A stretch of 64,000 nucleotides of DNA. It comes from Pelolinea sp. (GTDB lineage: Bacteria > Chloroflexota > Anaerolineae > Anaerolineales > Anaerolineaceae). How positions within the stretch are numbered: the first letter of the stretch is position 1; each line of letters opens with the position of its first letter. Below are positions 33,208 through 62,246 of this stretch, piece by piece. The DNA is taken from NCBI GenBank assembly GCA_030692365.1, contig JAUYCC010000019.1:1-64000 (forward strand), given 5' to 3'. The position numbers and the translations under genes were made by a program. Below the pieces are notes generated by a model. It was given only the letters and a program-made list of their open reading frames with translations. It did not search any database and was not told where the DNA came from.

Positions 33208-34584
33208 TTACAGGGGTTTCAACCCCATTTCCCGCACTTCCGCCTTAACCTCTTCATATAACTGTTGCCAGGAAGGCACAGGTTTCAGCGTTTTCAGGTT
33301 GTATGCCTGGTCAAAGCGCACACCGGGATTGCCGTTCGGCATCTGAAAAACGTGCTCATAGCGGCTGAGCAATTGGCTGACCAACTGATTTGCTTGCGTC
33401 AGGGTCAACCCTTGGCTTGTCACCGCGTGACCCACCTCAGCCATCCAGCGCGCTTCCAGCCCGGTGCCGTTGGGCAGGGCTCCATCCGCTGAACCCACTC
33501 CCTCCAGATGCCCACCGCTCACGGTGATCACGATGGCGTTTGCCGCCACTTCATACAGCAATTCTCTGGTCAGCGCGCCGCTTTTGGGATAAATGTCAGA
33601 GATAATGATACATGGCGCGTGTCGGGCAAAAGCCTGCTCCACAGCGGACTGCACCCACATTACCCCGCGCGTGCTGGTGGCGACGTGCCGGATGTGAATG
33701 GGGTGTAATAAATGATAATCCGCCAGGCAAACCCAGTTTGCCAGCAGGAAGGATGCCACCTGCACTACTGCCGCTCCGGGCGCGTCACCGCCCAGGCCGC
33801 CCACCATCACCGTCGCCAGTGACGCGTTGCGCATGCCGTAATCTTCGGAGTTCAGCGCCCTGGCCATATTGATCTGATCGATGATCAATTCATTAAATAA
33901 CGCCACTAGGTGAGAATCGGTTGGCCGAAGATACTTTGGATTGGAAATCGCCAGGTCGCCCAGCTCCGTAACGGCGCTTTGGCCGGCCAGCAGCCCCATT
34001 CCCGGCCGCCCGACGCGGCGCAGGGCTTCGCGCAATTGGCTCAGCTCCCAGCGCGCGGCAACAATTTCCATAGGTTTACCGGTTTCCACATCACGCCCAC
34101 GCACCTGAGTCAACGATCCGCAAGTGGCCAAATCAACCAGCGGCTCCTGCATCCAGCTCATCACGCACGGCATGAACAATTCTTCCGGGGTGGGCGTGCC
34201 GGGGTTCCCGGCCCAGACCAGCGGAGGGCGCTCATCCATGACCTTGCGGACATACAATTCACGCGCGTCCTTCCCCTCACCCATCTGTAGAGTTCGGGGA
34301 ACTCGCGCAATGCCTTCGTTGATCTCTTCCTGGCTGAATTTGATCACCCTCCCTGTGGCAATGCAGTAGATGCCTGAAGAGACAGCCAATTCCATGCCCG
34401 CCTGAAAAAGCCGGTCAATGAGATCCTCATCTTCAGGGATGACCTGATTTTTATCCCATTCCAGCCGGTATTTCTTGACCAGGCGCCTGACCGGCAGGAC
34501 GACATAGTCCATATCCCAATCAGCTTTTGAGACTACAAGCCCCGTTTTTGCCCGGTCGAGAATATCCAGATATGAATGAATCAA
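33208..34584 (-). CDS. Monomethylamine methyltransferase (MtmB)-family protein lacking pyrrolysine
   Basis: A 458-residue protein that aligns along its length with methanogen MtmB, which is also 458 residues: RAKTGLVVSKADWD near the N-terminus, GIYCIATGRVIKFS, ELFMPCVMSW, GRPGMG at 192-197, PTDSHLVALFNELIID, HPIHIRHVATSTRGV and the final GLEARWMAEVGHAVTS and YNLKTLKP blocks. MtmB moves a methyl group from monomethylamine to a corrinoid protein and has an in-frame TAG (pyrrolysine) just after GRPGMG. Here those codons are CTG CTG (L198, L199), so substrate or chemistry must differ. No corrinoid protein or RamA-type activator is nearby. Its 3' end has a remnant copy at 22296-22404. Confidence 0.78.
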   Translation of the reverse strand: MIHSYLDILDRAKTGLVVSKADWDMDYVVLPVRRLVKKYRLEWDKNQVIPEDEDLIDRLFQAGMELAVSSGIYCIATGRVIKFSQEEINEGIARVPRTLQMGEGKDARELYVRKVMDERPPLVWAGNPGTPTPEELFMPCVMSWMQEPLVDLATCGSLTQVRGRDVETGKPMEIVAARWELSQLREALRRVGRPGMGLLAGQSAVTELGDLAISNPKYLRPTDSHLVALFNELIIDQINMARALNSEDYGMRNASLATVMVGGLGGDAPGAAVVQVASFLLANWVCLADYHLLHPIHIRHVATSTRGVMWVQSAVEQAFARHAPCIIISDIYPKSGALTRELLYEVAANAIVITVSGGHLEGVGSADGALPNGTGLEARWMAEVGHAVTSQGLTLTQANQLVSQLLSRYEHVFQMPNGNPGVRFDQAYNLKTLKPVPSWQQLYEEVKAEVREMGLKPL

Positions 34585-34607
34585 ACCAATTTTCCCTTAT
34601 ACAAGTT

Positions 34608-40073: not shown

Positions 40074-41540
40074 TCAACTGTTTAAATACCTGTATGCGGT
40101 TAATAAATACAGTTTCGCGGCGAAGATTACACTCTCGATTATCACATATTCGTTGGCATTATGATGATTAAAGCCTTCCGGACCGACATTGAAAACATCC
40201 GTCATTCCGCCTGAAAGCATATTCCCGCCATCCGAAAATCCCGACGCGAAGGTGTAAATTGGTTCGGTTTCATATACCGCTTCAAAGGCACGGGCAAGCA
40301 CTTTTCCAAACCGCGTATCCTTGTCGATTAAAAAGCCTTCTCCTATCGTGATAACGCTTACCCTGACATCCACCGGTTCGTTCGCGAATTTGCCAATGGA
40401 CTGCTGCTTGTTCTGATACCCTATCGGGAGCTCAACCTTATATCCCAGCCTGGTACAGTAATCCGCGATCGCGTTAAACAGTTCTTGGGCGCTCAAGCCC
40501 GGCAGCACACGGAAATCCACATCCAGTTCGCACAGGTCCGGGACGATGTTGACCTTCTGCCCGGCACGAATGCGGTCAAAGCTGTAAGTGGTCTCAAAAG
40601 ACATGCCTATCCTGCGTTTGTCCTTTTCAAGTGGGTTTGGATTAACGGTTTTATGTGTGAGTAACTTAATAAGGTCAGGCAGTCTGTAACGTTTCAGGAA
40701 AGACTGTAATAGGGTAAAGGTATTGACAGGCAGCTTGTGTTTGGGAATTTTAAAAGAACTGCGGGAGTTGGCCATGAAACGCGCCGCTTTATTTAGCGCG
40801 TTGCTTTTTTGCTTGGGCACACTGCCATGTCCCGCCACGCCGTAGAAGGTGAACTTTAGCCAGTGCGGCCCTTTTTCACCAATGGTAATCACCGGTGTCT
40901 GCAGCGGCTCCTGAGATCGCGCTTCCGAAATAACTGTCGCGTCGGTTTTCACGATTTCCGGGTGGTGCTTGACCATATAGTCTGACCCGTACGCCCCGTG
41001 GGTTTCCTCATCGGGGGTGCACCACAACTGCAGCCGCCCGTTAAAGTCCACTTTGGATTCTTTGAGTAATTTCATTGCCATGATCTGTGCGGTGATGCCG
41101 GATTTCATGTCGCCCGCTCCACGGCCGTACATCCTACCATCCTTGATCACAGCGCTCAACGGCTGCGCATCCTTATTCCAGTTATCCGGGTTATACGCCA
41201 CGGTATCCAGATGCCCGTTGAACTGCAGGGATTTGCCCGTTGCCTTTCCGTCAATGAAAGCGATCAGATTGAAATAATACTGGTCTGTCTTTCCGCCAGG
41301 GAAGGGCACTTTGACCAGCTGCGTTTTGAATCCTTCTTTTCTTAAATATTTTTCGGTAAAGTGAAATATTTCGTAGCGCTCAGCATAGACGTCTTCGGAA
41401 ATATTGACCGAGTCAATTCTCACCAACTGCTGAAGAAGATCGATTAATTCCTGGCGGCGCTCATCCACCATTGAAAGCAACTTCTCTTCAGTTGGGTTTA
41501 GGGGCTGCAAGGGTTTTATTCTTTTCTCTGTAATGGTCAT
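40074..41540 (-). CDS. M20 family amidohydrolase/deacylase
   Basis: Zinc amidohydrolase of 488 residues in the ArgE/DapE/carboxypeptidase group. Zinc ligands and catalytic residues appear in LQFNGHLDTVAYNP (His and Asp), YGRGAGDMKSGI (bridging Asp), WCTPDEETHGAYGSDYM (catalytic Glu and ligand Glu), ISEARSQEP and a late GFNHHNANEYVI (His). The insert between is the dimerisation domain. Probably removes an acyl or peptide-like group from an amino acid. Last enzyme of the frl-like operon, 112 nt after the ureohydrolase, so its substrate is likely an N-modified basic amino acid. Confidence 0.8.
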   Translation of the reverse strand: MTITEKRIKPLQPLNPTEEKLLSMVDERRQELIDLLQQLVRIDSVNISEDVYAERYEIFHFTEKYLRKEGFKTQLVKVPFPGGKTDQYYFNLIAFIDGKATGKSLQFNGHLDTVAYNPDNWNKDAQPLSAVIKDGRMYGRGAGDMKSGITAQIMAMKLLKESKVDFNGRLQLWCTPDEETHGAYGSDYMVKHHPEIVKTDATVISEARSQEPLQTPVITIGEKGPHWLKFTFYGVAGHGSVPKQKSNALNKAARFMANSRSSFKIPKHKLPVNTFTLLQSFLKRYRLPDLIKLLTHKTVNPNPLEKDKRRIGMSFETTYSFDRIRAGQKVNIVPDLCELDVDFRVLPGLSAQELFNAIADYCTRLGYKVELPIGYQNKQQSIGKFANEPVDVRVSVITIGEGFLIDKDTRFGKVLARAFEAVYETEPIYTFASGFSDGGNMLSGGMTDVFNVGPEGFNHHNANEYVIIESVIFAAKLYLLTAYRYLNS

Positions 41541-41652
41541 AACCGATCTCCTCAGGTTGGTTTATAAGAGCATTATTTCGGAATTTCAGCAAACAAAAAA
41601 ATACAAAATTACTAAAATACTTTTTCTGGAAGTTCATCGGGAATAATCCCGT

Positions 41653-42573
41653 TTAATTATCCAGATTTCGCGCCAACGCGCCAATCGCGTTCCACGCGAC
41701 GCGCATGGCGGTGATAGTACCCAAGTGATTTACGTCCAACTCAGGCACCAGCTCCACCAGGCAGACACCCACCACTTGCGTTTTTAGCGCCACTGCCTGA
41801 AAAAGCTCAACCACATCCGCATAACTCAATCCGCCCGGCATCGGCGCGCCCACTGCCGGTATCACCGATGGATCGAGCACGTCGAAATCCATGGTGATGA
41901 AACATCTGCATCTATCCGGCAGATGAACCAATGCGGCATCAATACCTTCCCTTCTGATCTCGCATGAAGTCACCAGGTTCGCGCCATAATCCAGCGCCGC
42001 ACGGTATTCCTCTTCGCGGGCGCTGCCCACACCGCGCATGCCCACCTGGGTGATCCCCTTTACCCAGGGCATTTCCGACGCCCGCCGCATGGTGCTGGAA
42101 TAGCCCTCGCTGACACCATCCACATGGCTGCGCCAGTCGATATGCGCGTCCAGTTGCAGCACATAAAAGGGCTCCTGCTCTTCATAAGCGCGCAACACAG
42201 GAATAGGAATGGAATCATCGCCGCCCAATACTACCGGAATCGCGCCGGCTTTAAGGATCTTTTGAATCGCAGAAACTGCCGTTCGCCGGTTTCCCTGCGG
42301 GTCAGCCTGGCTTCCGGGCAGGTCGCCGCAATCCGCCACGCATGCGCCGGTGCGACCTAATAACGTATCACCCAGGTCAAAATCCCAGGCGATGGGATCA
42401 TCCGGGTAACGCACAGATTCTTGGCGAATGGCTGCGGGTGCGTTTAACGAATGGGTTGGTTTGGAAACATCATACGGCGTTCCATAAGGAATTCCGATAA
42501 CAGCGATATCTGCCTTTAACTTATCAAGATCAAGACACGATGGAAATCCGGCGAAAGTAATGGCGTTTTCCAC
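41653..42573 (-). CDS. Ureohydrolase (agmatinase/guanidinobutyrase family)
   Basis: Manganese-type ureohydrolase of 306 residues expected to split a guanidino compound into urea and an amine. Metal motifs: VVLGGDDSIPIP, LDAHIDWRSH (DAHxD), and ITMDFDVLDPSVIPAVGAP (DxD). The first motif normally reads GGDH; here the His ligand is Asp. The DAHxDW form and the ATGAPEPGG-like VGAPMPGG fit agmatinase/guanidinobutyrase/proclavaminate-amidinohydrolase relatives more than arginase. Follows two permease genes and precedes the M20 enzyme, pointing to catabolism of an imported arginine-like compound. Confidence 0.83.
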   Translation of the reverse strand: MENAITFAGFPSCLDLDKLKADIAVIGIPYGTPYDVSKPTHSLNAPAAIRQESVRYPDDPIAWDFDLGDTLLGRTGACVADCGDLPGSQADPQGNRRTAVSAIQKILKAGAIPVVLGGDDSIPIPVLRAYEEQEPFYVLQLDAHIDWRSHVDGVSEGYSSTMRRASEMPWVKGITQVGMRGVGSAREEEYRAALDYGANLVTSCEIRREGIDAALVHLPDRCRCFITMDFDVLDPSVIPAVGAPMPGGLSYADVVELFQAVALKTQVVGVCLVELVPELDVNHLGTITAMRVAWNAIGALARNLDN

Positions 42574-42582
42574 AATTACATC

Positions 42583-43260
42583 TTAACTACCGCGTTTGGC
42601 TGTTTCCAGCCCGGGAATGGTGGAGCGGCGTTCGATCTCATTTAGAAGTAACGTCATCGCACCGATCACCAGCAGGTAAACCATCCCAACCAACATATAG
42701 GTCTGCATGGGGTTGTAGTATTTGGACATTAATACCTTCGCCACATACAGCATCTCGGGTACGGCAATCAGGTAAACGATGGATGAGATCTTGACCATTG
42801 AAACCGCCTCATTGGACCAGGATGGGATGGCAAAACGGAATGCCTGGGGAATGATGACATGCCGGATGGCTTGCATACGGGTCATGCCGATCGAACGGGC
42901 AGCCATCATTTGGCCGCTGCTGATAGCCTGGATAGCGCCGCGGAAGTACTCCGACTGATAAGCGCCGCTGTTCAGCCCAATAGCCAGGTAAGCGGAAGTG
43001 AACGCCGAAAAGGTGATACCAAATTGCGGCAAACCAAAATAAATAAGAAAAAGTTGCACCAGCACCGGGGTGCCGCGAAAGATTTCGACGTATGCGGTCA
43101 CAAGCCAGCGCAGCCATTTGGGGCCGTAAACCCGCGCCAGGGCTACCGGAAAACCGATGACCATACCGATCACCAGACAAATTAAAGACACTTTAAAAGT
43201 AATCTGTAATCCGATCCAGATATTGGGAAGGGCAATTTGCAGATAATCTATAAAGCTCAT
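42583..43260 (-). CDS. Polar amino acid ABC transporter permease
   Basis: HisM/GlnP-type inner-membrane permease of 225 residues with five to six hydrophobic segments. The FRGTPVLVQLFLIYFGLPQFG region and the EAA loop (SIGMTRMQAIRHVIIPQAFRFAIP) that docks to the ATPase are clear. It pairs with the second permease at 44044-44685, with which it shares the EAA loop almost word for word. The ATPase gene lies between the two. Part of the frl-like operon. Confidence 0.9.
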   Translation of the reverse strand: MSFIDYLQIALPNIWIGLQITFKVSLICLVIGMVIGFPVALARVYGPKWLRWLVTAYVEIFRGTPVLVQLFLIYFGLPQFGITFSAFTSAYLAIGLNSGAYQSEYFRGAIQAISSGQMMAARSIGMTRMQAIRHVIIPQAFRFAIPSWSNEAVSMVKISSIVYLIAVPEMLYVAKVLMSKYYNPMQTYMLVGMVYLLVIGAMTLLLNEIERRSTIPGLETAKRGS

Positions 43261-43273
43261 TTGCTCTCCCCTT

Positions 43274-44026
43274 CTAATGCAGTCCGCTGATCTTGCCCAA
43301 AAACTGTTTGGTGCGCGGCAGGTCGGGATTGTTCAGCATCTTGTCAGGGAAACCCTGCTCAACAATCTCGCCGTGGTCCATGAAGACGATTCGGCTGCAC
43401 ACGTCGCGCGCGAAACCGATCTCATGCGTTACGCAGATCATGGTCATACCTTCCAAAGCCAGGTCTTTCATTACCATCAGAACCTCACCTATCAACTCCG
43501 GGTCGAGCGCGGAGGTCGGTTCATCAAAGAGCATCACGATGGGTTCCATGGCTAGTGAACGTGCGATAGCCACACGCTGCTTTTGCCCGCCGGAAAGCTG
43601 TCCGGGGTAATTACTGCATTTGTTCGCCAAGCCTACCCGCTTTAATTCCATCATGGTCTTGTCATGGGCTTCTTCTTTTTTCATACCCAGCACGTGGATC
43701 AACCCGAGCATAATGTTATCCAGCGCAGTCAGATGATTAAAGAGGTTGAAGTCCTGAAATACCATCCCGATATGCTGGCGGGCTTTATCAATATCGGTCT
43801 TCGGGTCGGTGAGTTCCACACCGTTGACCCACACTTTTCCGGAATCCGGCACGGTGAGTTGATTAATGCAGCGCAGTAATGTTGATTTGCCGGTGCCGGA
43901 AGGACCAACCAGAACCACTACTTCGCCTTCGGAAACGTCCATTGAAATTCCCTTGAGGACTTGTTCCTTCCCGTAGGCTTTGTGGATATTTTCAATTTTT
44001 ACGATCAATTTATCAGGTTTTGGCAT
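43274..44026 (-). CDS. Polar amino acid ABC transporter ATPase (GlnQ type)
   Basis: ATPase of 250 residues. Walker A VGPSGTGKSTLLRCIN, Q-loop in VFQDFNLFNHLT, signature LSGGQKQRVAIARSLA, Walker B VMLFDEPTSALDPE and H-switch CVTHEIGFARDVC are all present, with the short D-loop sequence typical of GlnQ/HisP. Drives import by the two flanking permeases with the lipoprotein at 45862-46659. Confidence 0.93.
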   Translation of the reverse strand: MPKPDKLIVKIENIHKAYGKEQVLKGISMDVSEGEVVVLVGPSGTGKSTLLRCINQLTVPDSGKVWVNGVELTDPKTDIDKARQHIGMVFQDFNLFNHLTALDNIMLGLIHVLGMKKEEAHDKTMMELKRVGLANKCSNYPGQLSGGQKQRVAIARSLAMEPIVMLFDEPTSALDPELIGEVLMVMKDLALEGMTMICVTHEIGFARDVCSRIVFMDHGEIVEQGFPDKMLNNPDLPRTKQFLGKISGLH

Positions 44027-44043
44027 GATTCCTTCCTCTATAC

Positions 44044-44685
44044 TCAGGCGGGGATTCTGATGCGGCGCTCAACCGCGTCCAGGCCGCGGTTGGTGATGAA
44101 GGTCAGCAAAAAATAGATCGCCGCGACCGTGATATAGGCTGTAAAGGGCTGGTAGGTGCGGGCGCTGTAATACTGCGCCTGGCGCAAGATCTCGGGTACA
44201 CCCAGCACATACACCAGTGATGAATCCTTGATTACGATAGCAGCTTCATTTGACCAAGACGGGATAGCATACCGAAACGCTTGAGGGATAATCACATGCC
44301 AGATGGCTTTGTAGCGGTTCATACCGATGGACCTGGCAGCCATCATCTGCCCGCCCGGCACCGATTGAATCGCGCCGCGGATAATCTCAGCCTGATAGGC
44401 GCTGCTGATGATCGCGAGCGACATTGACCCTGCCCAGAATGCCGACAGGTTCACAACGCGCGCGATCATGAAATAAAGAATTAGCAGCAGAAGGATATGA
44501 GGGAGCGCCCGCAAAATGGTGACATAATATCCAACCACCCTGGAGAGAATATTCCCGCCATACACCCTGAGGATCGCTAGGATAGAGCCAAAAAATAATC
44601 CGCATCCCAATGCAACAGCGGTGACTTCCAGTGTAACGCTCAATCCGCGCAGGATGTATGGGACGAGAACAGTCAAAACTTCCAT
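44044..44685 (-). CDS. Polar amino acid ABC transporter permease
   Basis: HisQ/GlnP-type permease of 213 residues. Contains VTILRALPHILLLLILYFMI and the EAA loop SIGMNRYKAIWHVIIPQAFRYAIP, plus SNEAAIVIKDSSLVYVLGVPE, typical of the family. Forms a heterodimer with the product of 42583-43260. Starts 23 nt after the ornithine-cyclodeaminase homologue. Confidence 0.9.
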   Translation of the reverse strand: MEVLTVLVPYILRGLSVTLEVTAVALGCGLFFGSILAILRVYGGNILSRVVGYYVTILRALPHILLLLILYFMIARVVNLSAFWAGSMSLAIISSAYQAEIIRGAIQSVPGGQMMAARSIGMNRYKAIWHVIIPQAFRYAIPSWSNEAAIVIKDSSLVYVLGVPEILRQAQYYSARTYQPFTAYITVAAIYFLLTFITNRGLDAVERRIRIPA

Positions 44686-44708
44686 CAGAAATATCCTTCC
44701 TCAGACTC

Positions 44709-45746
44709 CTAGATCCAGAGCGGTTTTTCCCATAACGCGATTTTCTGGCCTAATCCCTTGGCTTTGGCATTCTGATAAATACGTTCCGCGATGGTGATAT
44801 CCAAGCAGCCCATGCCCAGGTTCGCGAACAAAATGCGCTGGTCACAGTTGGTACGTCCGGGTTTCTCACCAATCAGGATCTTGCCAATATCCGTAATATC
44901 TTCGTCCTTTAATTTGCCAGCCATATGTAATTGCGTCGGGGGGAAGTAATCCCAGGTCTTCAAAGTTGCCCAGTTGTCCACAACCAGGCGGTCGGTGTTC
45001 AGGAAGGCAGCATTTTCCGCTTCAGCTTTAGACATATGCGCGTAATAACTGCCTTTGGGGATCCATTCATCCTTGACAAACGGCTTACGGGCAGTTGTTT
45101 GAGTTGTGATGATATCCGCGTCTTTAAAAGCTTCCTGAACGCTATCTACTACACGAACCTTGATCTTCCCTTCAAATTCTTTGGCAAGATCCTCAGCACG
45201 TTTCCGGTTCAGGTCAAACAGGCGGATTTCTTCCAGTTTGGACATAGCCGTGGTGAGCGACATGATCATGGTGCGCCCGATCACGCCCGCGCCGATCAAG
45301 CCCGCCACTTTGGAATCGGGATTAGCCAGTGTTCTGGCTCCAACACCGGCGACAGCGGAAGTGCGCATGGCGGTAATCAAACCTGCTTCCATGATGGCAT
45401 GCGGGATTGCATGTTCCAGATCATGCAGCAGAATAATATCAATTCCCATGGGCATATCGCCGCGTTTGGCATTGGCCATCGATTCGGCCGCCCATTTGTG
45501 CCCGATACGGTTGACAGTACCGCCAACATAAACAGGCATTGAAACAGCCAGGTAATACTGCTCTTCGCCTGTTTCCGGATTATCAAAGCGAAATACTGGT
45601 TTGTGCGGCTGGTTCACCTGTCCGGAAGCGAATAATTTATAAGTTAATTCCACATCATCCAGCGCGGCATGCATATCCAGCGCTCCGGCCGCGATCACAT
45701 CTTCCTGCGTGAGGAAAAGAAATTCGGGTTTGTATAATTCAGTCAT
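44709..45746 (-). CDS. Ornithine cyclodeaminase/mu-crystallin family enzyme
   Basis: NAD-dependent enzyme of 345 residues. The substrate Lys lies in NRIGHKWAAES, the dinucleotide fold in KVAGLIGAGVIGRTMIMSLTT, and TTQTTARKPFVKDEWIPKG and DRLVVDNWATLKTWD follow. The family converts ornithine to proline with loss of ammonia, or reduces imines (alanine dehydrogenase, ketimine reductase). With a ureohydrolase and a class III aminotransferase in the operon, ornithine or a related diamino acid is a reasonable substrate. True specificity is not predictable. Confidence 0.82.
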   Translation of the reverse strand: MTELYKPEFLFLTQEDVIAAGALDMHAALDDVELTYKLFASGQVNQPHKPVFRFDNPETGEEQYYLAVSMPVYVGGTVNRIGHKWAAESMANAKRGDMPMGIDIILLHDLEHAIPHAIMEAGLITAMRTSAVAGVGARTLANPDSKVAGLIGAGVIGRTMIMSLTTAMSKLEEIRLFDLNRKRAEDLAKEFEGKIKVRVVDSVQEAFKDADIITTQTTARKPFVKDEWIPKGSYYAHMSKAEAENAAFLNTDRLVVDNWATLKTWDYFPPTQLHMAGKLKDEDITDIGKILIGEKPGRTNCDQRILFANLGMGCLDITIAERIYQNAKAKGLGQKIALWEKPLWI

Positions 45747-45773
45747 GATTTCATCCTATATTTTTAAGAAATT

Positions 45774-45824
45774 CAGGGCAGAAACCGGCGCTTCAATAAA
45801 TTTTTGCGTTGCGCTTCTGCCCTG
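45774..45824 (-). terminator. Hairpin after the binding-protein gene
   Basis: CAGGGCAGAA (45774-45783) and TTCTGCCCTG (45815-45824) form a 10-bp stem with an inner GC-rich pairing. It sits 37 nt after the solute-binding-protein gene and 27 nt before the next start. Such hairpins commonly raise binding-protein mRNA over the membrane genes. No T-run follows, so it is likelier to act by mRNA stability than by termination. Confidence 0.45.
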
Positions 45825-45861
45825 TCTCTTTATCGTTTGTTACTCAGGTCTTAAGTTCTGA

Positions 45862-46659
45862 TTACTTAACACCATATTGGGTTAGCAGTTTTTCAATAAA
45901 GCCTTCATTAAGCATATCGGTTATATGCTTGTCGAGTTCAGTCTTGAGGGCGGTTTCACCTTGCTTAATGGCGATGGATTGACCTTCGGTTTCCATCTCG
46001 CCACGCCAGAGTTCCTTGAAACCAAAGGCGGGGTCGGCCATGAACTGTTTGCCAGGTTCCATGTCCATAACAGCGATGTCAATACGGCCAGCCTGCAGGT
46101 CGAGGGCAACCTGCTCATTGCGCTCATACAAAGACATGTTCTCTTTCTTCATAAGACCCGGGGTGATCAGGTTATTTTCTACCCAGTACTGCATAATGGT
46201 ACCGGATTGTGTGCCAATCTTGTAATCGGCAGCTTTCAACGGATCAGTAAAGGCGATTTTGGAATCCTTGGCTGCAAGCATGACATTGTCGCCGGCATAA
46301 TACATGACCGAGAAATCAATCGATTTTCTGCGTTCTGTGGTAGAAGCCATAGCCGCAATAGCCGCATCCACTTTACCTTCCTGAACAGCGGTCACTAGGG
46401 CATCGAAACCAAGGTCCTGGAATTCCACTTCAACGCCCATGCGCTTGCCAATTTCGCGCATGATCTCCATATCGATTCCGACAAATTTATCGTTCTCGTC
46501 CTTGTACTCCCAGGGTTCGTAATCCGCTGAGGTGCCCACCACGATCTTGCCCGCTTTTTTGATGGCGTCCAACCGTGAGGCAGGCGCCTTGGGACCGCAG
46601 GCGGCCACAAGAATCGCCAGGACAATTACCATCAACAACACTTTCATTAACTTTTTCAT
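45862..46659 (-). CDS. Polar amino acid-binding lipoprotein of ABC importer
   Basis: Family 3 solute-binding protein of 265 residues. Signal peptide with lipobox AILVAACG, so it is membrane-anchored outside the cytoplasm. IVVGTSADYEPWEYKDENDK is the usual N-terminal binding segment, MASTTERRKSIDFS contains the Arg that holds the ligand alpha-carboxylate, and YKIGTQSGTIMQYW and DIAVMDMEPGKQF line the second lobe. ATG 46659 follows AAAGGAGAAGG. The acidic residues in the cleft could suit a basic side chain. Delivers to the permeases at 42583 and 44044. Confidence 0.9.
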   Translation of the reverse strand: MKKLMKVLLMVIVLAILVAACGPKAPASRLDAIKKAGKIVVGTSADYEPWEYKDENDKFVGIDMEIMREIGKRMGVEVEFQDLGFDALVTAVQEGKVDAAIAAMASTTERRKSIDFSVMYYAGDNVMLAAKDSKIAFTDPLKAADYKIGTQSGTIMQYWVENNLITPGLMKKENMSLYERNEQVALDLQAGRIDIAVMDMEPGKQFMADPAFGFKELWRGEMETEGQSIAIKQGETALKTELDKHITDMLNEGFIEKLLTQYGVK

Positions 46660-46739
46660 CTTACCTTCTCCTTTAGGTTTTTTTGTGTTTTGGTTACAGG
46701 TAACCAAATACCCTTGTAGAATTATTTAGGGTTGAATTA

Positions 46740-48047
46740 TTATACTTCGCCCATTGACACCTCCAGGATTTCGAGCGCTTTATTAATTTGTTCTTTCGTC
46801 ACAACCAGAGGCGGGATTAAGCGGATAACCTGTCCGGTCGGTCCGGCCATGTAACCCACCAGGCCGTGGTCGAGTGCTTTCTGAAGAATTGCCATGGCTT
46901 TATCAGGATCGGGGTTTTTGCTGCCGTCAGGCTTGACAATTTCAAGAGCGACCATCAGTCCCTTTCCGCGCACATCACCGATAAAGGGATAGGAGGTTTG
47001 TATCTTTTTAAGGCCGTCCAGGAAAATCGTGCCCATCTTTCGGCTGTTTTCCAGAACGTTTTCCTCTTTCATCACTTCCTGGACTGCCAGAGCGGCCGCG
47101 CAGGCTACCGGGTTACCGCCGAAAGTGGTTCCGTGCGCGCCGGGCAGCCAGCGGCTCATGATATCGCGGCTGGCGACGGTCGCTGAGAGCGGAAAGCCGT
47201 TGGCGATGCCCTTGGCGACAGCCATAATGTCTGGCCTGACATCGTAGGTCTGGGCGGCAAACATTTCACCCGTGCGGCCAAAGCCAGACTGGACCTCATC
47301 AAAAATGAGGAAAATGCCGTGTTCATCGCAAATACGCCGCAATTCTTTGAGGAATTCAACAGGTGGGAAGATATAACCGCCCTCACCCTGCACCGGTTCG
47401 ACGATCATCGCCGCGACTTCTGTGGGTTGGATGTAATGGTTGAAAATCTTTTCAATGCTGGCCACACTCCAGGCAACTGCTTTCTCAGGGGTATCCCCAA
47501 TCGGGCAACGGTAAGGATTGGCAAAATCGGCAAAATAGATGCCCGGAACAAGCGGTTCATAATGCTTGCGGTACTTGGATTTCACCGAGGTGACCGATAC
47601 TGCGCCGTAGGTGCGCCCGTGGAAGCCGCCGGTAAAGGCAATGATGCCTGGGCGGCCGGAGACGTAACGCGCCATTTTCAGCGCGCCTTCCACCGCTTCG
47701 GAACCGCTGTTGCCAAAGAAGAACATATCCATGCCTTCAGGCATGACCTTGGGCAGCACTTCAGTCAGCCGGAGCAAAGGTTCATGAAGGGTGATGCCTA
47801 CCGCGCTGTGAGAAAACTTTTTCATTTGTTCGATGGCCGCGTTCAGGACTTTGGGATGGTTATGCCCAAGGTTGGTTACGCCTATTCCGGAGGTGAAATC
47901 CATGTATTCACGGCCGTCTTCGGTATATAAATACACGCCTTCCGCACGGACTGCGGGCAATTCTGGCCAGTCCTCCGCCAGCGAGGGCGCCAGGTTCGTT
48001 CTTACCTTGTTCAGCAACTGTTTGTAGCTCAATGATTGTTCAGCCAT
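46740..48047 (-). CDS. Class III aminotransferase (4-aminobutyrate/diamine type)
   Basis: PLP enzyme of 435 residues in the GabT/ornithine aminotransferase group. TSGIGVTNLGHNHPKVL at the N-terminus, FGNSGSEAVEGALKMAR phosphate site, IFDEVQSGFGRTGEMFA with the cofactor Asp, and AVAKGIANGFPLSATVAS with the Schiff-base Lys. Length and the E-V-Q-S-G-F-G-R-T-G form favour 4-aminobutyrate or omega-amino acid substrates. Guanidinobutyrase would give 4-aminobutyrate, which would then be used here; this link is inference. First gene after frlD on the - strand operon. Confidence 0.85.
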   Translation of the reverse strand: MAEQSLSYKQLLNKVRTNLAPSLAEDWPELPAVRAEGVYLYTEDGREYMDFTSGIGVTNLGHNHPKVLNAAIEQMKKFSHSAVGITLHEPLLRLTEVLPKVMPEGMDMFFFGNSGSEAVEGALKMARYVSGRPGIIAFTGGFHGRTYGAVSVTSVKSKYRKHYEPLVPGIYFADFANPYRCPIGDTPEKAVAWSVASIEKIFNHYIQPTEVAAMIVEPVQGEGGYIFPPVEFLKELRRICDEHGIFLIFDEVQSGFGRTGEMFAAQTYDVRPDIMAVAKGIANGFPLSATVASRDIMSRWLPGAHGTTFGGNPVACAAALAVQEVMKEENVLENSRKMGTIFLDGLKKIQTSYPFIGDVRGKGLMVALEIVKPDGSKNPDPDKAMAILQKALDHGLVGYMAGPTGQVIRLIPPLVVTKEQINKALEILEVSMGEV

Positions 48048-52218: not shown

Positions 52219-53181
52219 TTAAGCCAGCCAAGTATTCAATACAAGCGAAGCGTACTTTTGCTGGTCAGCGTCTATTACTACTGCCACTTCTTTTCTTCCC
52301 GGATAAGCTTCGCCGCGTTGGTATTTTCTCCTGTCAACAACGGTCATGCCACGTGTAAATTCACCGCGAGTTTCGACATGGATCTGGTAATTTTCAATTT
52401 CCATTATCGAAGGATCAATTGCCGCGGCAACCGCCAGCAGGTCGGGTGGTGAAACAGCGCCTTCTTCCGTCACCTGTTTTCTGCCCATCTTGTGAACCAG
52501 TTCATGCGTCACATCAAAAATCTTTCCGGCTAGATTACACCAGAGCTTGTCGCTCGCAGCTTTAATTTTCTGTTGATCGCTCCACTTCAGGTAACCACCC
52601 AAAAAGAGTGGATCCAGTGGAACCATCATTTTAGGCATGGCGCTGTCAAAGACAATCCTTGCCGCATCTGGGTCTGCGAAGACATTGAACTCAGCCATCG
52701 GGCGCGTGTTGCCAGAGTCCAATCCACCGGCCATCATGGTCAGTAATCGGATTTTCTCCTCAATGCGCGGCTCCTTGCGAAGAGCGAGAGCGGCATTGGT
52801 CAACGGTCCGATTGTGATCCAGTCCATAGGTTCTTTCGCTTCCATGAAAGTACGGACAATAAAATCTATGGCGTGTTCATTTTCAACGGAATGTTTCGGC
52901 GCTGGCAAAGGTATCCCGCCCAGCCCGTCTGAGCCGTGGACTTTGGACGCGTTTTCATCAGCGTCAACCATTAATGCGCTTGTCGCGCCCGCATAAACAG
53001 GAACTTGTTTGCCTGATTGTTCAACCACACGCAGGGTGTTGTAAACAACCTTATCCAAGCCGACATTCCCGTTTACGCAGGTAATGCCCAAAACATTTAA
53101 CTCGGATGAGCGGAGCGCCAGCAGCAAAGCAACAGCGTCATCTAAACCGGTGTCACAATCAATGATTACATTTCGAGCCAT
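52219..53181 (-). CDS. Inosine-uridine-preferring nucleoside hydrolase
   Basis: Ribonucleoside hydrolase of 320 residues. The calcium/ribose motif VIIDCDTGLDDAVALLLAL is at the N-terminus; LGITCVNGNVGLDK, ITIGPLTNAALALRKEP, MAEFNVFADPDAARIVFDS and MMVPLDPLF follow in the expected order. Releases free base and ribose. Encoded alone, but with a second hydrolase at 59092 and ribokinase at 63084 it fits the salvage theme of this end. Ribosome site GGAGGA. Confidence 0.88.
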   Translation of the reverse strand: MARNVIIDCDTGLDDAVALLLALRSSELNVLGITCVNGNVGLDKVVYNTLRVVEQSGKQVPVYAGATSALMVDADENASKVHGSDGLGGIPLPAPKHSVENEHAIDFIVRTFMEAKEPMDWITIGPLTNAALALRKEPRIEEKIRLLTMMAGGLDSGNTRPMAEFNVFADPDAARIVFDSAMPKMMVPLDPLFLGGYLKWSDQQKIKAASDKLWCNLAGKIFDVTHELVHKMGRKQVTEEGAVSPPDLLAVAAAIDPSIMEIENYQIHVETRGEFTRGMTVVDRRKYQRGEAYPGRKEVAVVIDADQQKYASLVLNTWLA

Positions 53182-53376
53182 TTCTTTCCTCCACGATAAA
53201 TAAATATTCTTACATCAAGATTTTACCCTTCAGTTTGCTAGGCAGAATCCAAGTAATTCCTTCATTGCTTAATTAAAATTATTTAATCCCAACAACTTTT
53301 TTCTGCACAGGCAAAGATTCTAACATGTTTGTCGGACAATTAATTTTGCACTATAATTTCAGGTTAGGGATAAGCA

Positions 53377-53973
53377 ATGGATAAACGCATCAGCAGGCAA
53401 TACTTCAACAATCTGGCCGGAACTTGGGATGATACTGCCCGCAACAACGATCCGGTTAAATTAAGGGCTTTGGCGAAATGCCTGGATTTACCATCCGATG
53501 GTTGGATCCTTGATGTGGGGACTGGCACAGGGGTCTTTCTACCTTATTTAAAGGAATTAGTAAACGGAAAAAGCCAGATCCTATCCATGGATTTCGCGGT
53601 TAATATGGTGGCGCTCGCAAAAAGTAAACAGGCGGGTAATGGAATCCAGTTTATTTGCGCTGAAATTGAAACACTGCGCTTTGGCAGTGAACTTTTTGAT
53701 TCTGTCATCTGTTACTCCACCTTTCCCCATTTCCACAATAAACCCCTTGCCCTGAAAAATATTTACACCAACTTAAAACCCGGCGGCCGCCTTTTTATCT
53801 GCCATACCGCCAGCCGAGAGTTTATCAATCAAACCCACAGCAAAATTCCCGATTTAAAGGACCATTTGATCCCGGATAATGACGAAATGAAGGATTTATT
53901 AATTTCCTCCGGGTTTTTTGAACATGAGATTGCTTCAAAAGAAGATTACTACTTGGTAACCGCCAAGAAATAA
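53377..53973 (+). CDS. Class I SAM-dependent methyltransferase
   Basis: A 198-residue Rossmann methyltransferase. Motif I is WILDVGTGTGVFLPYLKEL, motif II ILSMDFAVNMVALAKSK, and motif III/post-I FDSVICYSTFPHFHNKPLALKN. The substrate is unknown; the N-terminal RQYFNNLAGTWDDTAR opening resembles UbiE/Methyltransf_11-type enzymes of anaerobes. Stands alone between a nucleoside hydrolase on the other strand and the BMP lipoprotein. Confidence 0.82.
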   Translation: MDKRISRQYFNNLAGTWDDTARNNDPVKLRALAKCLDLPSDGWILDVGTGTGVFLPYLKELVNGKSQILSMDFAVNMVALAKSKQAGNGIQFICAEIETLRFGSELFDSVICYSTFPHFHNKPLALKNIYTNLKPGGRLFICHTASREFINQTHSKIPDLKDHLIPDNDEMKDLLISSGFFEHEIASKEDYYLVTAKK

Positions 53974-54191
53974 TCCTTTTAACAGCAACAGATTAGTATG
54001 GTTAATTGTTTTTCAAATATTGATTTTAATAAAGGTGTAAGTGTTATATACTATATTTATTCTCTCAGCAAAGAGGATGGATTAATTCTTTGTCGTTCAA
54101 TTGATTGGGAATTTCAAAGGAGGTGACCATATTCGATTATTCTGCAAATTTTTTTTGGATCGTCAAAAATTAAATTTCTAGGAGAAACCAA

Positions 54192-55322
54192 ATGAAAAAG
54201 AGTATGTTAGTCGCTTTAGCTGCCCTGCTGATCGGTTCGTTGCTTTTCGCGGCTTGCGCCCCCAAAGCAGCAGAACCTGCTCCTGCCGAAGCGCCTGCTG
54301 AAGAAGCAGCCCCCGCCGAAGAGGCAGCACCTGCCCCAACCGAAGCTCCCAAATTCACCTGCGCGTTGATCACCCCCAATCCCTTGGGCGACCGATCCTT
54401 CATTGACTCATCAGCCCGCGGTATAGAACAGGCTAACGCAGAACTGCCCGTGAAATGCGACATCATTGAAACCAATGGCGTTGCCGAACACGAAGCCGCT
54501 CTGCGCGGCGCGGTTTCTGAGGGTTACGACCTGGTGCTTGGGCTTGCGATAGACCCGGCCTTGTTCCTTGCCCTGGCTGAAGAATTCCCGGATCAGAAAT
54601 TCTCATCACCTTCCGAAGTCTTCGCCGAATCTCTGCCTGCCAACTTCAGCTCCTACCTCATCGATGTGCATGAGAACAGTTTCCTGGCTGGCCTGATTGT
54701 CGGCAGCCTGACCAAGACCAAGACCGTCGGCGCAGTAGTCGGCGGTGATGCCCCTGGTTTGAACCAGTTCTTCTATGGTTACAAGCAGGGTGTTTTGGAA
54801 GTTTGCCCGGACTGCAAAGTGCTCGTCAGCTACCTCGGGTTCGAGTTCTCCAACCCGACCCTCGGTCTCGAAACAGCCCTCGGCCAGTATGAGGCGGGTG
54901 CGGACATCATCTACCAGGTTGCCGGACGTTCCGGCGAAGGTGTCCTGGAAGCCGCTGCCCAGAAAGACCTGTATGCCATCGGCGTGGACTCCAACCAGGA
55001 TGACATCCAGCCCGGCCATGTGATCGTCTCCGCTTTAAAGCGTGTTGATCAGACAACCTTTGATGCGATCAAACAGGTTGTCGATGGCACCTTCGCCGGC
55101 GGATTTATTCGTAAAGGCATGAAGGATGGATTTGCCGGTTTATCATGGGACGAGGGTTCAAAAACCTTTGAGGAAAATGGTCCCAAGGAAATGGTTGACA
55201 AGCTGCCAGAGGTCAAGAAACTGGTGGAAGAATACAAAGCCAAGATCATCAGCGGTGAGTATAAGGTTTGCGATGCGTTCGCCGCGGATTCAGAGGTTTG
55301 TGTAGCCCTGCTCGCAAAATAA
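54192..55322 (+). CDS. BMP/PnrA-family nucleoside-binding lipoprotein
   Basis: Solute-binding lipoprotein of 376 residues. Signal peptide MKKSMLVALAALLIGSLLFA with lipobox FAAC, then a 30-residue Ala/Pro/Glu linker, then the BMP fold: NPLGDRSFIDSSARGIEQAN, YDLVLGLAIDPALFLALAE, KTVGAVVGGDAPGLNQFFYGY, YEAGADIIYQVAGRSGEGVLEAA and AIGVDSNQDDIQPG. The family binds purine or pyrimidine nucleosides. AGGAG before ATG. Followed by a strong terminator-like hairpin and the ABC genes. Glu/Pro linker lengths like this are common in Anaerolineae lipoproteins. Confidence 0.88.
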   Translation: MKKSMLVALAALLIGSLLFAACAPKAAEPAPAEAPAEEAAPAEEAAPAPTEAPKFTCALITPNPLGDRSFIDSSARGIEQANAELPVKCDIIETNGVAEHEAALRGAVSEGYDLVLGLAIDPALFLALAEEFPDQKFSSPSEVFAESLPANFSSYLIDVHENSFLAGLIVGSLTKTKTVGAVVGGDAPGLNQFFYGYKQGVLEVCPDCKVLVSYLGFEFSNPTLGLETALGQYEAGADIIYQVAGRSGEGVLEAAAQKDLYAIGVDSNQDDIQPGHVIVSALKRVDQTTFDAIKQVVDGTFAGGFIRKGMKDGFAGLSWDEGSKTFEENGPKEMVDKLPEVKKLVEEYKAKIISGEYKVCDAFAADSEVCVALLAK

Positions 55323-55340
55323 GAAGTTCATAAATTATGT

Positions 55341-55373
55341 AAAGACCCCGAAGGATTGCCTTCGGGGTCTTTA
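55341..55373 (+). terminator. Strong hairpin between binding protein and ATPase genes
   Basis: AAAGACCCCGAAGG (55341-55354) pairs with all 14 bases of CCTTCGGGGTCTTT (55359-55372) around ATTG, followed by A and T. The ribosome site GGAGG of the next gene begins at 55375. It would end most transcripts after the lipoprotein gene and may hide the start of the ATPase gene when folded. Confidence 0.8.
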
Positions 55374-55387
55374 TGGAGGTAAACCGC

Positions 55388-56941
55388 ATGGCAAATGCAT
55401 TAGAGATGAAGGGGATTACCAAATATTTCAGCTCGACCGATGTTCAGGCGAATGATTCCGTAAACTTTGAGGTCAAAGCCGGTGAAGTTCACGCCCTGGT
55501 CGGAGAAAACGGAGCTGGAAAAACCACATTGATGAACATCCTCTACGGCCTGATCAAACCAGACGCCGGGGAAATTCTCATCAATGAGAAAAAGGTAACC
55601 ATTAACCACCCTGATGATGCCATCCGGAATGGTATTGGAATGGTACATCAGCATTTTGAACTGGTGCCTTCCTTTACAGTCGCGCAAAATATCATGCTAG
55701 GAATTGAACCCAATTCAGCCGGTTTTATCTCCCAAAAATCAGAAAATCAGATCGTAATAGACCTGGCAAATCAGTTCAACTTACCCGTAGATCCCAAAGC
55801 TGTCATCAGGGATTTGCCGGTCGGAATGCAGCAGCGGATTGAAATCCTCAAAGTGCTGCAGCGCAAGGCAAAATTTTTAATTCTAGATGAACCCACTGCT
55901 GTACTCACCCCGCAGGAAGTTAATGAGTTGATGGGTGTGGTGCGCAATCTTTCAAAAATGGGCTATTCCATCGTCTTTATTACTCATAAATTAATTGAGG
56001 TTATGCATGTTGCCGATCGCGTCAGTGTAATGCGCAACGGCAAAATGATGGGAACCAAAAAAGTTTCTGACACAGATATTCCGGACTTGGCGCGCATGAT
56101 GGTCGGCCGCGAAGTGCTTTTGAGCGTTAACAAGACCCCTGCCAAACGCGGGGAGCCTGTGTTTGAAGCCCGGGATGTCAGCGTTTCGGATGTCAACGGG
56201 CTAGCCGCAATTTCTCATGTTTCATTTACTGTGAACAGCGGCGAAATTGTCGGCATTGCCGGTGTCAACGGCAACGGTCAGACAGAACTTGTGGAAGTAA
56301 TTTCAGGCATGAAAGCCCTGGATGGCGGAAATTTATTGATCAAGGGCAAAGACATCACTCATTCCAGCGTCAGGGAGAGGCGTGATTCGGGTGTCGCCCA
56401 TATTCCTGAAGACCGTATGAAAGTCGGATTAAATCTGCAAACCATCCTTGATGAAAACCTGATCGTTTCCCGATATAACGATTCCGAATTCAGCAAGTTT
56501 GGTTTTCTTTTAGGAAAATCGATCAGAAAATTCACCGATTCGGTGATTGATGCCTTCTCCATTAAAGCGGCTGAATCCGGCGAGGGGATTTCCATGCTCT
56601 CCGGCGGTAATTTACAGAAAGTTGTAGTCGGTAGAGAGCTCTCCGGCAATCCTTCTTTCATCATTGCCAATCAACCCACCCGCGGGCTGGATGTGGGCAG
56701 CATTGAATTTGTCCATAAAACCCTGATCGAAGAGAGGGATAAATGCGCCGGTGTACTGCTGGTTTCGGTCGAATTGGATGAGATCATGTCCCTTGCAGAC
56801 CGCATCTTGGTTCTTTACCGAGGTGAAATTCAGGGAGAATTGGATGCCAGTAGCGCCACCGAAGAGGAGATCGGTATCCTGATGGCCGGCGGAAAAATTG
56901 ACAAAAACTCACCTAAACCTAACAAGAAGGGAGGGAAATAG
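55388..56941 (+). CDS. Nucleoside ABC transporter ATPase (two ATPase domains)
   Basis: A 517-residue duplicated ATPase of the NupO/RbsA type. Domain 1 has Walker A VGENGAGKTTLMNILYG and Walker B LILDEPTAVLTPQE with a degenerate signature (LPVGMQQRIEILK). Domain 2 has the weaker GVNGNGQTELVEVISG loop, a proper LSGGNLQKVVVGREL signature and FIIANQPTRGLDVGS. The asymmetry is usual for this family. ATG 55388 follows GGAGG. Two permease genes follow with 2-nt gaps. Confidence 0.9.
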   Translation: MANALEMKGITKYFSSTDVQANDSVNFEVKAGEVHALVGENGAGKTTLMNILYGLIKPDAGEILINEKKVTINHPDDAIRNGIGMVHQHFELVPSFTVAQNIMLGIEPNSAGFISQKSENQIVIDLANQFNLPVDPKAVIRDLPVGMQQRIEILKVLQRKAKFLILDEPTAVLTPQEVNELMGVVRNLSKMGYSIVFITHKLIEVMHVADRVSVMRNGKMMGTKKVSDTDIPDLARMMVGREVLLSVNKTPAKRGEPVFEARDVSVSDVNGLAAISHVSFTVNSGEIVGIAGVNGNGQTELVEVISGMKALDGGNLLIKGKDITHSSVRERRDSGVAHIPEDRMKVGLNLQTILDENLIVSRYNDSEFSKFGFLLGKSIRKFTDSVIDAFSIKAAESGEGISMLSGGNLQKVVVGRELSGNPSFIIANQPTRGLDVGSIEFVHKTLIEERDKCAGVLLVSVELDEIMSLADRILVLYRGEIQGELDASSATEEEIGILMAGGKIDKNSPKPNKKGGK

Positions 56942-56943
56942 CC

Positions 56944-58044
56944 ATGCAGAATAAAAAATTGAAAAAACTTCTTGATTCAATCCTTGTTCCCGCCCTCGCC
57001 ATTCTCTCTGGTCTGGTTTTAATGGCAGTGCTCATCGCGGTCACTAAAAAGCCGCTGCTCGAATCCTACGGCATTTTATTTTCAAAAGGTTTCGGCTGTG
57101 TAAAGATCGGCAACTGCGCTATACTGACCACCCTGGAACGTGCCACCCCTATTATCCTGACAGGCCTTTCAGCTGTGGTTGCCTTCCGCTCCGGGTTATT
57201 CAGCATTGGCCAGGAAGGGCAGTTTTTGATGGGCTCTGTGGTGGCTGCCTGGCTGGGGTACAGCATTCACCTTCCGAACGGAGTTCATCAGGTTGTCATC
57301 ATCCTGGCTTGTATGGCTGCCGGTGCCGCTTATGGGTATATCCCGGGAATTCTAAAAGTAAAACTTGGGGTCAACGAATTGCTGGCAACTATCATCCTTA
57401 ATACGATAGCCACATTATTTATTGAATATATGGTTCAATTTCCCCTTCGCGCGGATAAAGCCACCACAGCACACTCACCCATTATTGATAAAACGGCCGA
57501 ATTGGCAACATTCATGCCGGGTTCAAAGTGGGGCGTGGGATTCATTATCGCGATCGTGATGGTTATCGTTGTATATATATTCCTTTGGAAAACCAAAAAA
57601 GGATATGAGCAGCGCATGGCTGGACAGGCCAAACGGTTTGCCCTCTACGGCGGCATTGCCAGCGATAAAGCTGCTATCCGCGCCATGCTGATCAGCGGTG
57701 CCCTGGCCGGTCTGGCAGGCGCAGTTGAAGTGCTGGGCGTTCACAGGCGCATCATGACAGGATTCTCTGTTGGGCTGGGATTTGATGGTCTGACATCCGC
57801 TATTCTCGGACAGACTCATCCTTTCGGTGTGATGATCGTTGCCATTCTCTTCGCGGGTTTGAAACTGGGCGCCCAGCTCGGCCTCCAGTTAAAACTTGGC
57901 ATCCCGAGGGAATTGGGCGGCACCATCATTGGTTTCATCATCCTTTTCATTGCCGCGCGCAAGTTCTATGAAGGCAACATTGAATCCGTGCGTGGGTGGT
58001 TTAAAAGAAAAACAGAACACAAAACGAGAGGGGAAGGCGGTTAA
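56944..58044 (+). CDS. Nucleoside ABC transporter permease (NupP type)
   Basis: Membrane permease of 366 residues with 9-10 hydrophobic segments. TGLSAVVAFRSGLFSIGQEGQFLMG and LAGLAGAVEVLGVHRRI are the NupP/BmpB-type blocks; KLGVNELLATIILNTIA is the cytoplasmic loop that meets the ATPase. The first periplasmic loop carries two cysteines (GFGCVKIGNCAIL), also present in the paralogue at 60944. Partner of the permease at 58046. Confidence 0.88.
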   Translation: MQNKKLKKLLDSILVPALAILSGLVLMAVLIAVTKKPLLESYGILFSKGFGCVKIGNCAILTTLERATPIILTGLSAVVAFRSGLFSIGQEGQFLMGSVVAAWLGYSIHLPNGVHQVVIILACMAAGAAYGYIPGILKVKLGVNELLATIILNTIATLFIEYMVQFPLRADKATTAHSPIIDKTAELATFMPGSKWGVGFIIAIVMVIVVYIFLWKTKKGYEQRMAGQAKRFALYGGIASDKAAIRAMLISGALAGLAGAVEVLGVHRRIMTGFSVGLGFDGLTSAILGQTHPFGVMIVAILFAGLKLGAQLGLQLKLGIPRELGGTIIGFIILFIAARKFYEGNIESVRGWFKRKTEHKTRGEGG

Positions 58045-58045
58045 C

Positions 58046-59029
58046 ATGGAAGGATTCTTCAGCGTTTTTACGATTGAACTAGTCAACAGCGGCATCCGCC
58101 TTGCAACACCTATCATCCTGGCTGGTCTTGGCGGTGCGCTGTGCAACAAATCCGGTGTCTTGAACCTCGCCCTGGAAAGCAAAATGTTGTTGGGCGCGTT
58201 TATTGGAATCGTCTCAGCTTTTTACCTTGGTAATTCCTATCTGGGGCTGCTGGTTGCCATGGCGGCAGGTGGTATCCTTGGAGCGCTTTTCGCGTTCTTG
58301 TATCATCGCTATGAAGTGGACCTGGTCATTCTGGCAATTGCGTTTAACCTCATTATTTTGGAGTTGACCGTGTATGTCATGCGTGTGATGTTCGGCAATG
58401 TGGGCAGCTGGTCCGATCCGAGCATTGTCCGCATCCCTGACTTTGAAATTCCGCTGATTAAAAGTATTCCCGTCATAGGCGGCATTTTAAGCGGGTACAA
58501 CATCATTGTCTATTTTTCCTGGTTCGCGGCCATCATCCTTTATATCGTCCTCTATAAGATGAAATTCGGGCGCCATATCCGCGCGGTTGGTGAGAACAAA
58601 GAAGCTGCTGAGACGGTAGGCATAAATGCTCGAATGATCCAGACGCTGGCGCTGGTACTTTCGGGCATGCTGGCAGCGTTGGGGGGTGCTTTCCTTTCCA
58701 TCGGCCACCTCAAACTCTTTACCCGCAATATGAGCAACGGCCGCGGCTGGATCGCCATCGCGGCGGCGCTGTTTGGTGCCAACCACCCCATCGGCACCTT
58801 TTTTGCAGGCTTCTTCTTTGGCATAACCGAGGCGTTTGCGGTTCGCATCCAAAATGTAACCGACCTGCCGCCCAACCTGATTGAATTGCTGCCTCATTTT
58901 GCCACCCTTCTGATCCTGGTCTTTATCGCGCTGCGCGACAAGATCAAGGAATCCATGGCTCGCGGCCGGTTCCGCGCCAAGCTAAGGGCAGAATCTACCG
59001 AAGCCGTCAAGGAAATAAGCGCTTCCTGA
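58046..59029 (+). CDS. Nucleoside ABC transporter permease (NupQ type)
   Basis: Second permease of 327 residues. Starts at ATG 58046 one nucleotide after the NupP stop, with GGGAAGG ahead; a longer frame from 57896 overlaps NupP and is not used. TPIILAGLGGALCNKSGVLNLALESKML and GENKEAAETVGINARMIQTLALVLSGMLAALGG are the family blocks. Followed by an intrinsic terminator at 59051. Confidence 0.88.
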   Translation: MEGFFSVFTIELVNSGIRLATPIILAGLGGALCNKSGVLNLALESKMLLGAFIGIVSAFYLGNSYLGLLVAMAAGGILGALFAFLYHRYEVDLVILAIAFNLIILELTVYVMRVMFGNVGSWSDPSIVRIPDFEIPLIKSIPVIGGILSGYNIIVYFSWFAAIILYIVLYKMKFGRHIRAVGENKEAAETVGINARMIQTLALVLSGMLAALGGAFLSIGHLKLFTRNMSNGRGWIAIAAALFGANHPIGTFFAGFFFGITEAFAVRIQNVTDLPPNLIELLPHFATLLILVFIALRDKIKESMARGRFRAKLRAESTEAVKEISAS

Positions 59030-59050
59030 CAGGCGTGGAGAAATTAAGGG

Positions 59051-59086
59051 AATCAGGGATGTGACGGCAACCATCCCTGATTTTTT
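59051..59086 (+). terminator. Intrinsic terminator before the nucleoside hydrolase gene
   Basis: AATCAGGGATG (59051-59061) pairs with CATCCCTGATT (59072-59082), followed by TTTT. It ends 5 nt before the ATG of the hydrolase at 59092, which has no Shine-Dalgarno. It ends the transporter transcript and may shut or delay translation of the next gene. Confidence 0.8.
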
Positions 59087-59091
59087 CAACC

Positions 59092-60021: not shown

Positions 60022-60032
60022 AGGGAGAAATA

Positions 60033-62226: not shown

Positions 62227-62246
62227 AGAATTATTTGATAATGAAC

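Follow-up and report, generated by a model that had tools for sequence, protein, structure and literature searches.

That bacteria encode homologues of MtmB without pyrrolysine (Pyl) has been established before, and a function has been found for an archaeal homologue of this non-Pyl type. This enzyme, MtqB from Methanococcoides methylutens Q3c, has a pocket described as aromatic- and sulfur-rich, and work of 2026 demonstrated that it removes methyl groups from tetramethylammonium and choline; a phylogeny of 1,061 MtmB sequences contains many other non-Pyl proteins without known function (PMC13044021). An original prediction made from the letters of the present DNA, that the non-Pyl counterpart of MtmB is much less explored than that of MttB, has in part been overtaken by the demonstrated activity of MtqB. 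The joint action of a donor methyltransferase, a corrinoid protein and a homocysteine methyltransferase likewise has a precedent, in which the donor subunit is of the MttB type (PMC12478193). In the vitamin importer component YkoE of Bacillus subtilis, Glu77 and Gln95 hold the aminopyrimidine of thiamine and Tyr46 and Asp131 contact its thiazole (PMC5037267). What is new is the gene context of the MtmB clade described here; in the literature searched, which took in subscription papers only in small part, no paper connected MtmB with an ECF importer, with the methylation of homocysteine or with the breakdown of purines.

The window, meaning the whole stretch of 64,000 nucleotides from Pelolinea sp. 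that was analysed, carries a gene (Table 1) whose frame coincides exactly with the predicted coordinates and length. The protein matches PF05369 (MtmB) with E 9.9e-101 and 338.2 bits (cut-off 25), residues 6-455 aligning with positions 4-450 of the 450-position profile. PF05369 is the sole Pfam family matched, to the exclusion of PF06253 (MttB/COG5598), and the profile search for a better-fitting family thus returned none. Among PDB entries searched with phmmer, only MtmB1 from Methanosarcina barkeri (1l2q/1nth, 1tv2) matched, with 238 bits over the whole length, and all remaining entries had E > 0.1; no NCBIfam model matched at E <= 0.001, and the plasmids searched held no homologue. An AlphaFold2 model, computed from an input with two relatives, was discarded with a pLDDT of 36.5. 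Comparison with the 84% and 77% identical orthologues gave pS/pN values of 0.70/0.097 and 0.74/0.157, respectively, confirming that the gene is real and under strong purifying selection, neither a chance frame nor decaying.

Table 1. Features of the mtmB homologue in the window
Feature	Coordinates	Strand	Remarks
Pyrrolysine-free mtmB homologue	33208..34584	minus	458 aa, TTG start; PF05369 full length; MtmB1 1l2q full length; purifying selection
AAGGG, ribosome-binding-site-like	34594..34598	minus	9 nt before TTG; consensus only, putative
GRPGMG motif, residues 192-197, preceding the Pyl-equivalent position	33994..34011	minus	
Codon CTG of Leu199, equivalent of MtmB Pyl202	33988..33990	minus	Alignment to 1l2q and MAFFT
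DIYPK, residues 330-334	33583..33597	minus	Asp330 = MtmB Gln333; Tyr332 = Tyr335; Lys334 = Cys337

The window genome is an Anaerolineaceae-like metagenome-assembled genome (MAG) of 2.48 Mb in 102 contigs with 96% completeness, in which neither a second PF05369 gene nor a PF06253 (MttB) protein was found. The nearest named relatives of the protein come from an Anaerolineae MAG (84% identical) and a Pelolinea MAG (77% identical), and the family is patchy, being present in 17 of 101 relatives, in 7 of 400 genomes across the phylum and, with a clade-specific profile, in 51 of 400 genomes of the order. The phylogeny proposed as a check was computed with IQ-TREE from 85 sequences and placed the window protein in a monophyletic clade of 26 MtmB homologues from Anaerolineales (bootstrap 100), where each of the sequences branching closest to the window gene and its orthologues (L113, L119, L036 and L035) is linked to ECF genes.

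The two leucine codons that had been noticed after GRPGMG, at the site of the amber-coded Pyl of MtmB, are supported by the codons and three alignments alike. Residues 192-200 read GGG CGG CCG GGA ATG GGG CTG CTG GCC (GRPGMGLLA), and it is the second CTG, Leu199, that falls on Pyl202 in the pairwise alignment to 1l2q and in two MAFFT alignments. The gene has no in-frame TAG, and a search with the C-terminal domain of PylS gave no hit in the window genome. With the full-length PF05369 match, Leu at the Pyl site and no PylS, the central claim of a Pyl-free MtmB homologue in a bacterium stands. Across the clade the Pyl position is Leu in 25 of the 26 members and Met in one. We take Glu259, Gln333, Tyr335 and Cys337 to be the residues around Pyl202 that line the MtmB active site. 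The further claim that the motifs match MtmB throughout holds for GRPGMG and for Tyr335, which is retained in 25/26 clade members, but fails for Glu259, Gln333 and Cys337, which have become Leu, Asp and Lys in all 26. These replacements bear on whether the protein demethylates monomethylamine without pyrrolysine, a reading that PF05369 membership and the slight monomethylamine activity of MtqB (PMC13044021) would favour, but that is hardly credible with Leu at the residue of the methylamine adduct, Leu and Asp at the equivalents of Glu259 and Gln333 in the whole clade, and no Pyl machinery.

In the window, mnmA precedes the gene on the same strand at a distance of 23 bp, and a sugar kinase gene converges on it from the other side. 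Co-transcription with mnmA was considered, but no functional link is claimed, because mnmA is not beside the gene in loci L005 and L006. No evident metabolic partner was seen beside the gene in the window, and this stand-alone position is common to the two nearest relatives. The statement that no corrinoid protein is adjacent is true within the window, although two MtxC-type proteins are encoded elsewhere in the genome. No riboswitch was detected at the gathering threshold in the window or in the loci of eight relatives. Elsewhere in the window, an amino-acid/amine cluster at 40074-48047 (minus strand) encodes an M20 peptidase, an arginase/agmatinase family protein, an ABC transporter with a family-3 binding protein, an ornithine-cyclodeaminase family protein and a class III aminotransferase. 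About 18 kb from the mtmB homologue, a nucleoside-salvage cluster at 52219-62984 comprises two nucleoside hydrolases, a BMP-type binding protein, an ABC ATPase, permeases, a ribose-1-phosphate-kinase-like protein and a uridine phosphorylase.

Other members of the clade have richer neighbourhoods. An MtxC-type corrinoid protein (PF02607/PF02310) is encoded within 200 bp in 16 of the 26 members. Sixteen of the 26 have a YkoE-type S component (PF09819) no more than 400 bp away, with a double ATPase (ABC_tran) and a CbiQ-type protein (PF02361) encoded after it. RACo (PF14574) together with a homocysteine S-methyltransferase (hcyMT, PF02574) occurs within 8 kb in 5/26, and at four of these five loci the genes run MtmB, ECF genes, PF13769 protein, RACo, hcyMT, URO-D. 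In the other MtmB branches MtxC lies within 8 kb at 53 of 58 loci and YkoE near MtmB at one of 58, and 20 control stretches of 20 kb contained one RACo and one hcyMT but no YkoE, BMP, nucleoside permease, xanthine dehydrogenase or deaminase. The families counted were chosen after the loci had been inspected, so the contrast between clade and controls is descriptive rather than a blind test. Extended clusters running MtxC-MtmB-YkoE-ATPase-YkoC-PF13769-RACo-hcyMT-URO-D are found in L057, L112 and L115 and, from a contig edge, in L109, and the L036 cluster unites RACo, hcyMT, MtxC, MtmB and ECF genes. The corrinoid-protein linkage in 16/26 members, together with full length and purifying selection, argues against the window gene being a relic or having an unrelated function on the MtmB fold, a very unlikely reading for which the stand-alone position in the window and the two nearest relatives speaks.

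The proposed search of the genome for MtbC/MtmC-type corrinoid and RamA-type proteins was productive. Contigs C35 and C10 each encode an MtxC protein; the two share 92% identity with each other and about 64% with the MtxC from the L036 cluster, against 47% for the next best. The hcyMT, encoded on C76, shares 52% identity with its L036 counterpart, and RACo is encoded on C5. A donor methyltransferase, MtxC, a reductive activator and an acceptor methyltransferase are accordingly all encoded in the window genome, all unlinked. A TAG within RACo was considered as a readthrough codon and proved to be the terminal stop, the match ending just past the end of the frame. The only PF09819 protein of the genome, on C16, was rejected as an importer orthologue since it has no Gln95 and a different architecture, and no orthologue of the clade YkoE was found in the window genome. 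Among eight genomes tested whose MtmB has no neighbouring MtxC, an unlinked MtxC was present in all eight, 64-68% identical in five besides the window's own, and hcyMT in seven. In genomes G730 and G736, MtxC, RACo, DUF1638, CobW-like, hcyMT and URO-D/thioredoxin genes form one cluster, with mtmB and ECF genes elsewhere. From these unlinked genes and this split layout, a scattered system is usual in this branch.

Several features around the partner genes deserve separate mention. The C35 MtxC adjoins a URO-D/thioredoxin gene and the C10 MtxC sits in an MtaB/URO-D cluster, so either could serve other donors, and the C10 copy may serve the MtaB/URO-D system. This second corrinoid system (L031 415-13385, on C10) comprises MtaB (PF12176, 534 bits), URO-D proteins, the C10 MtxC with a transposase-like gene adjoining it, and an ABC transporter of the sugar type. 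At L030 6103-7506 (minus strand), a URO-D methyltransferase with a fused C-terminal thioredoxin-like domain (PF13192) adjoins MtxC. A gene without a Pfam match at 1e-5 is adjacent to RACo in L036 (7127-7825, minus strand) and L123 (3665-4384, plus strand), and DUF1638 takes the same place in L198 (3575-4357, plus strand); the RACo-adjacent gene or DUF1638 is possibly part of corrinoid activation.

The family, the loss of Pyl, the clade, the gene contexts and the presence of the partner genes are observed, and on this basis we propose, with a probability of roughly 0.55 for the explanation as a whole, that the window protein is a donor-side corrinoid methyltransferase acting in trans whose methyl group goes to homocysteine, the enzyme activity itself being predicted. 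The in-trans pairing is drawn from relatives, as the partner genes are not adjacent in the window. The TIM barrel would bind a methylated, probably cationic N-methyl compound without a pyrrolysine adduct. By analogy with the adjacent genes in relatives, the methyl group would then pass to Co(I) of the MtxC on C35, or to the copy on C10. As in the single cluster of relatives, the stand-alone hcyMT would accept it to form methionine and RACo would re-reduce the corrinoid.

The acceptor could instead be a thiol, methylated by the URO-D/thioredoxin fusion beside the C35 MtxC in the manner of a methyl-thiol or CoM-methyltransferase-like enzyme. Corrinoid:thiol methyltransferases belong to the URO-D superfamily (PMC10418091), the fusion gene adjoins MtxC in the window genome, and URO-D/thioredoxin, MtxC and an MtmB form an operon-like run in L038 and L123. 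This route is nonetheless improbable, as URO-D/thioredoxin is near none of the 26 clade members compared with five for hcyMT; both genes share one cluster in L197 and L198, for which reason the thiol and homocysteine routes are not exclusive.

Under the proposal of homocysteine as acceptor, the least certain step is the identity of the donor, which would be imported in relatives through the YkoE-type ECF transporter. The likeliest candidate, at somewhat less than even odds, is a small N-heterocycle with a 4-aminopyrimidine-like edge, possibly an N-methylated nucleobase such as would arise from RNA turnover. Three lines of sequence evidence point to N-heterocycle donors. The first is the S component: in the 16 clade proteins Glu77 and Gln95, which contact the pyrimidine, are retained, while the thiazole contacts Tyr46 and Asp131 have become Gln and Thr/Ser, and Trp49 has become Phe. 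The second is a set of loci in which clade members stand among purine genes. In L118 the clade member lies 4 bp after a nucleoside-type ABC permease gene and 16 bp before an adenine deaminase gene (TIGR01178, 503 bits against a cut-off of 472.5), all on one strand, and those of L117 and L108 accompany xanthine dehydrogenase, deaminases and nucleoside transporters; such direct purine context concerns only 3/26 members. The third is the company of the other MtmB branches, where 21 of 37 loci have purine- or nucleoside-type genes within 8 kb, including adenosine deaminase (TIGR01430, above cut-off). N-methylated adenines and similar bases would, on chemical grounds, be cationic or easily protonated methyl donors bearing a 4-aminopyrimidine edge.

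Purine-related genes were also observed in other settings. A xanthine-dehydrogenase-like gene lies upstream of hcyMT in the window genome as well as in both nearest relatives. Contig C18 of genome G543, which holds L117 and L118, has an island with at least five MtmB homologues from different branches and several MtxC, along with xanthine dehydrogenase, adenine, deoxyadenosine-type and cytosine-type deaminases and a nucleoside transporter. In L120, L121 and L125, another MtmB branch is clustered with adenosine deaminase, MtxC, xanthine dehydrogenase and a nucleoside transporter.

The main rival to a heterocycle is a quaternary amine, as for MtqB: the window protein would be a bacterial MtqB counterpart that demethylates choline, tetramethylammonium or another betaine with an MtxC partner and with homocysteine, tetrahydrofolate or a thiol as acceptor. 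Demonstrated activity among non-Pyl MtmB homologues is confined to MtqB (PMC13044021), the characterised non-Pyl MttB proteins use quaternary amines, and the module set is akin to the split methionine synthase/glycine-betaine demethylase MtgBCDE of Ruegeria (PMC12478193). We nevertheless hold this reading to be doubtful, as the importers of the clade are YkoE-type ECF and BMP-type nucleoside transporters instead of the expected betaine or choline importers, and as the Asp and Lys at 333 and 337 are invariant, in contrast to the aromatic and sulfur-rich pocket of MtqB, which was compared by its description.

For the preferred heterocycle, the clade neighbours (a vitamin-type importer, a B12 protein, hcyMT or purine-breakdown genes) suggest demethylation of methylated ring compounds with production of methionine. 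The original prediction had left donor and acceptor open, which is right for the window, where no partner lies, but the choice is narrowed by the MtxC, ECF importer, RACo, hcyMT and purine-catabolic genes adjoining the relatives and by the orthologues of MtxC, RACo and hcyMT in the window genome. Extended to the whole group, and only tentatively, the non-Pyl MtmB proteins of Anaerolineae may be corrinoid-dependent demethylases of N-methylated nucleobases or nucleosides, such as methylated adenines released by RNA turnover, a salvage coupled to methionine synthesis that works free of O2.

Of the many Pyl-free MtmB homologues, a single one has an established activity; for a large bacterial branch, the neighbourhoods now point to testable partners (corrinoid protein, RACo and hcyMT), a testable importer and a few candidate donors. 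Should these donors be methylated nucleobases, one-carbon units and purines would be recovered anaerobically from modified RNA, and the MtmB fold, like that of MttB, would have found broad use on cationic N-methyl groups independently of pyrrolysine.

Compared with the described systems, the window protein shares with M. barkeri MtmB full-length homology, length, GRPGMG and Tyr335, but differs in Leu for Pyl202, in Leu, Asp and Lys for Glu259, Gln333 and Cys337, and in being encoded in a bacterium without PylS and with no adjoining corrinoid protein. MtqB is also a non-pyrrolysine MtmB homologue; it is archaeal, feeds coenzyme M and methane, and has MtqC as its partner corrinoid protein; next to the window gene there is no corrinoid-protein gene, and 16 of the 26 clade members have MtxC within 200 bp. 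The transporter of the relatives resembles B. subtilis YkoEDC (PMC5037267, 5EDL) in its PF09819 S component with the kept pyrimidine contacts, fused double ATPase and CbiQ-type protein, whereas its thiazole contacts and Trp49 are changed and the eight loci searched yielded no thiamine riboswitch. MtgB and other non-Pyl MttB proteins (COG5598, PF06253) follow a like logic, a Pyl-free donor methyltransferase with MtxC and RamA/RACo, but form a separate family that the window genome lacks. In MtgBCDE of Ruegeria pomeroyi (PMC12478193), a separate donor methyltransferase, corrinoid protein and homocysteine methyltransferase likewise exchange methyl groups; the donor subunit there belongs to PF06253, in contrast to PF05369 here, where relatives additionally carry an ECF or nucleoside importer.
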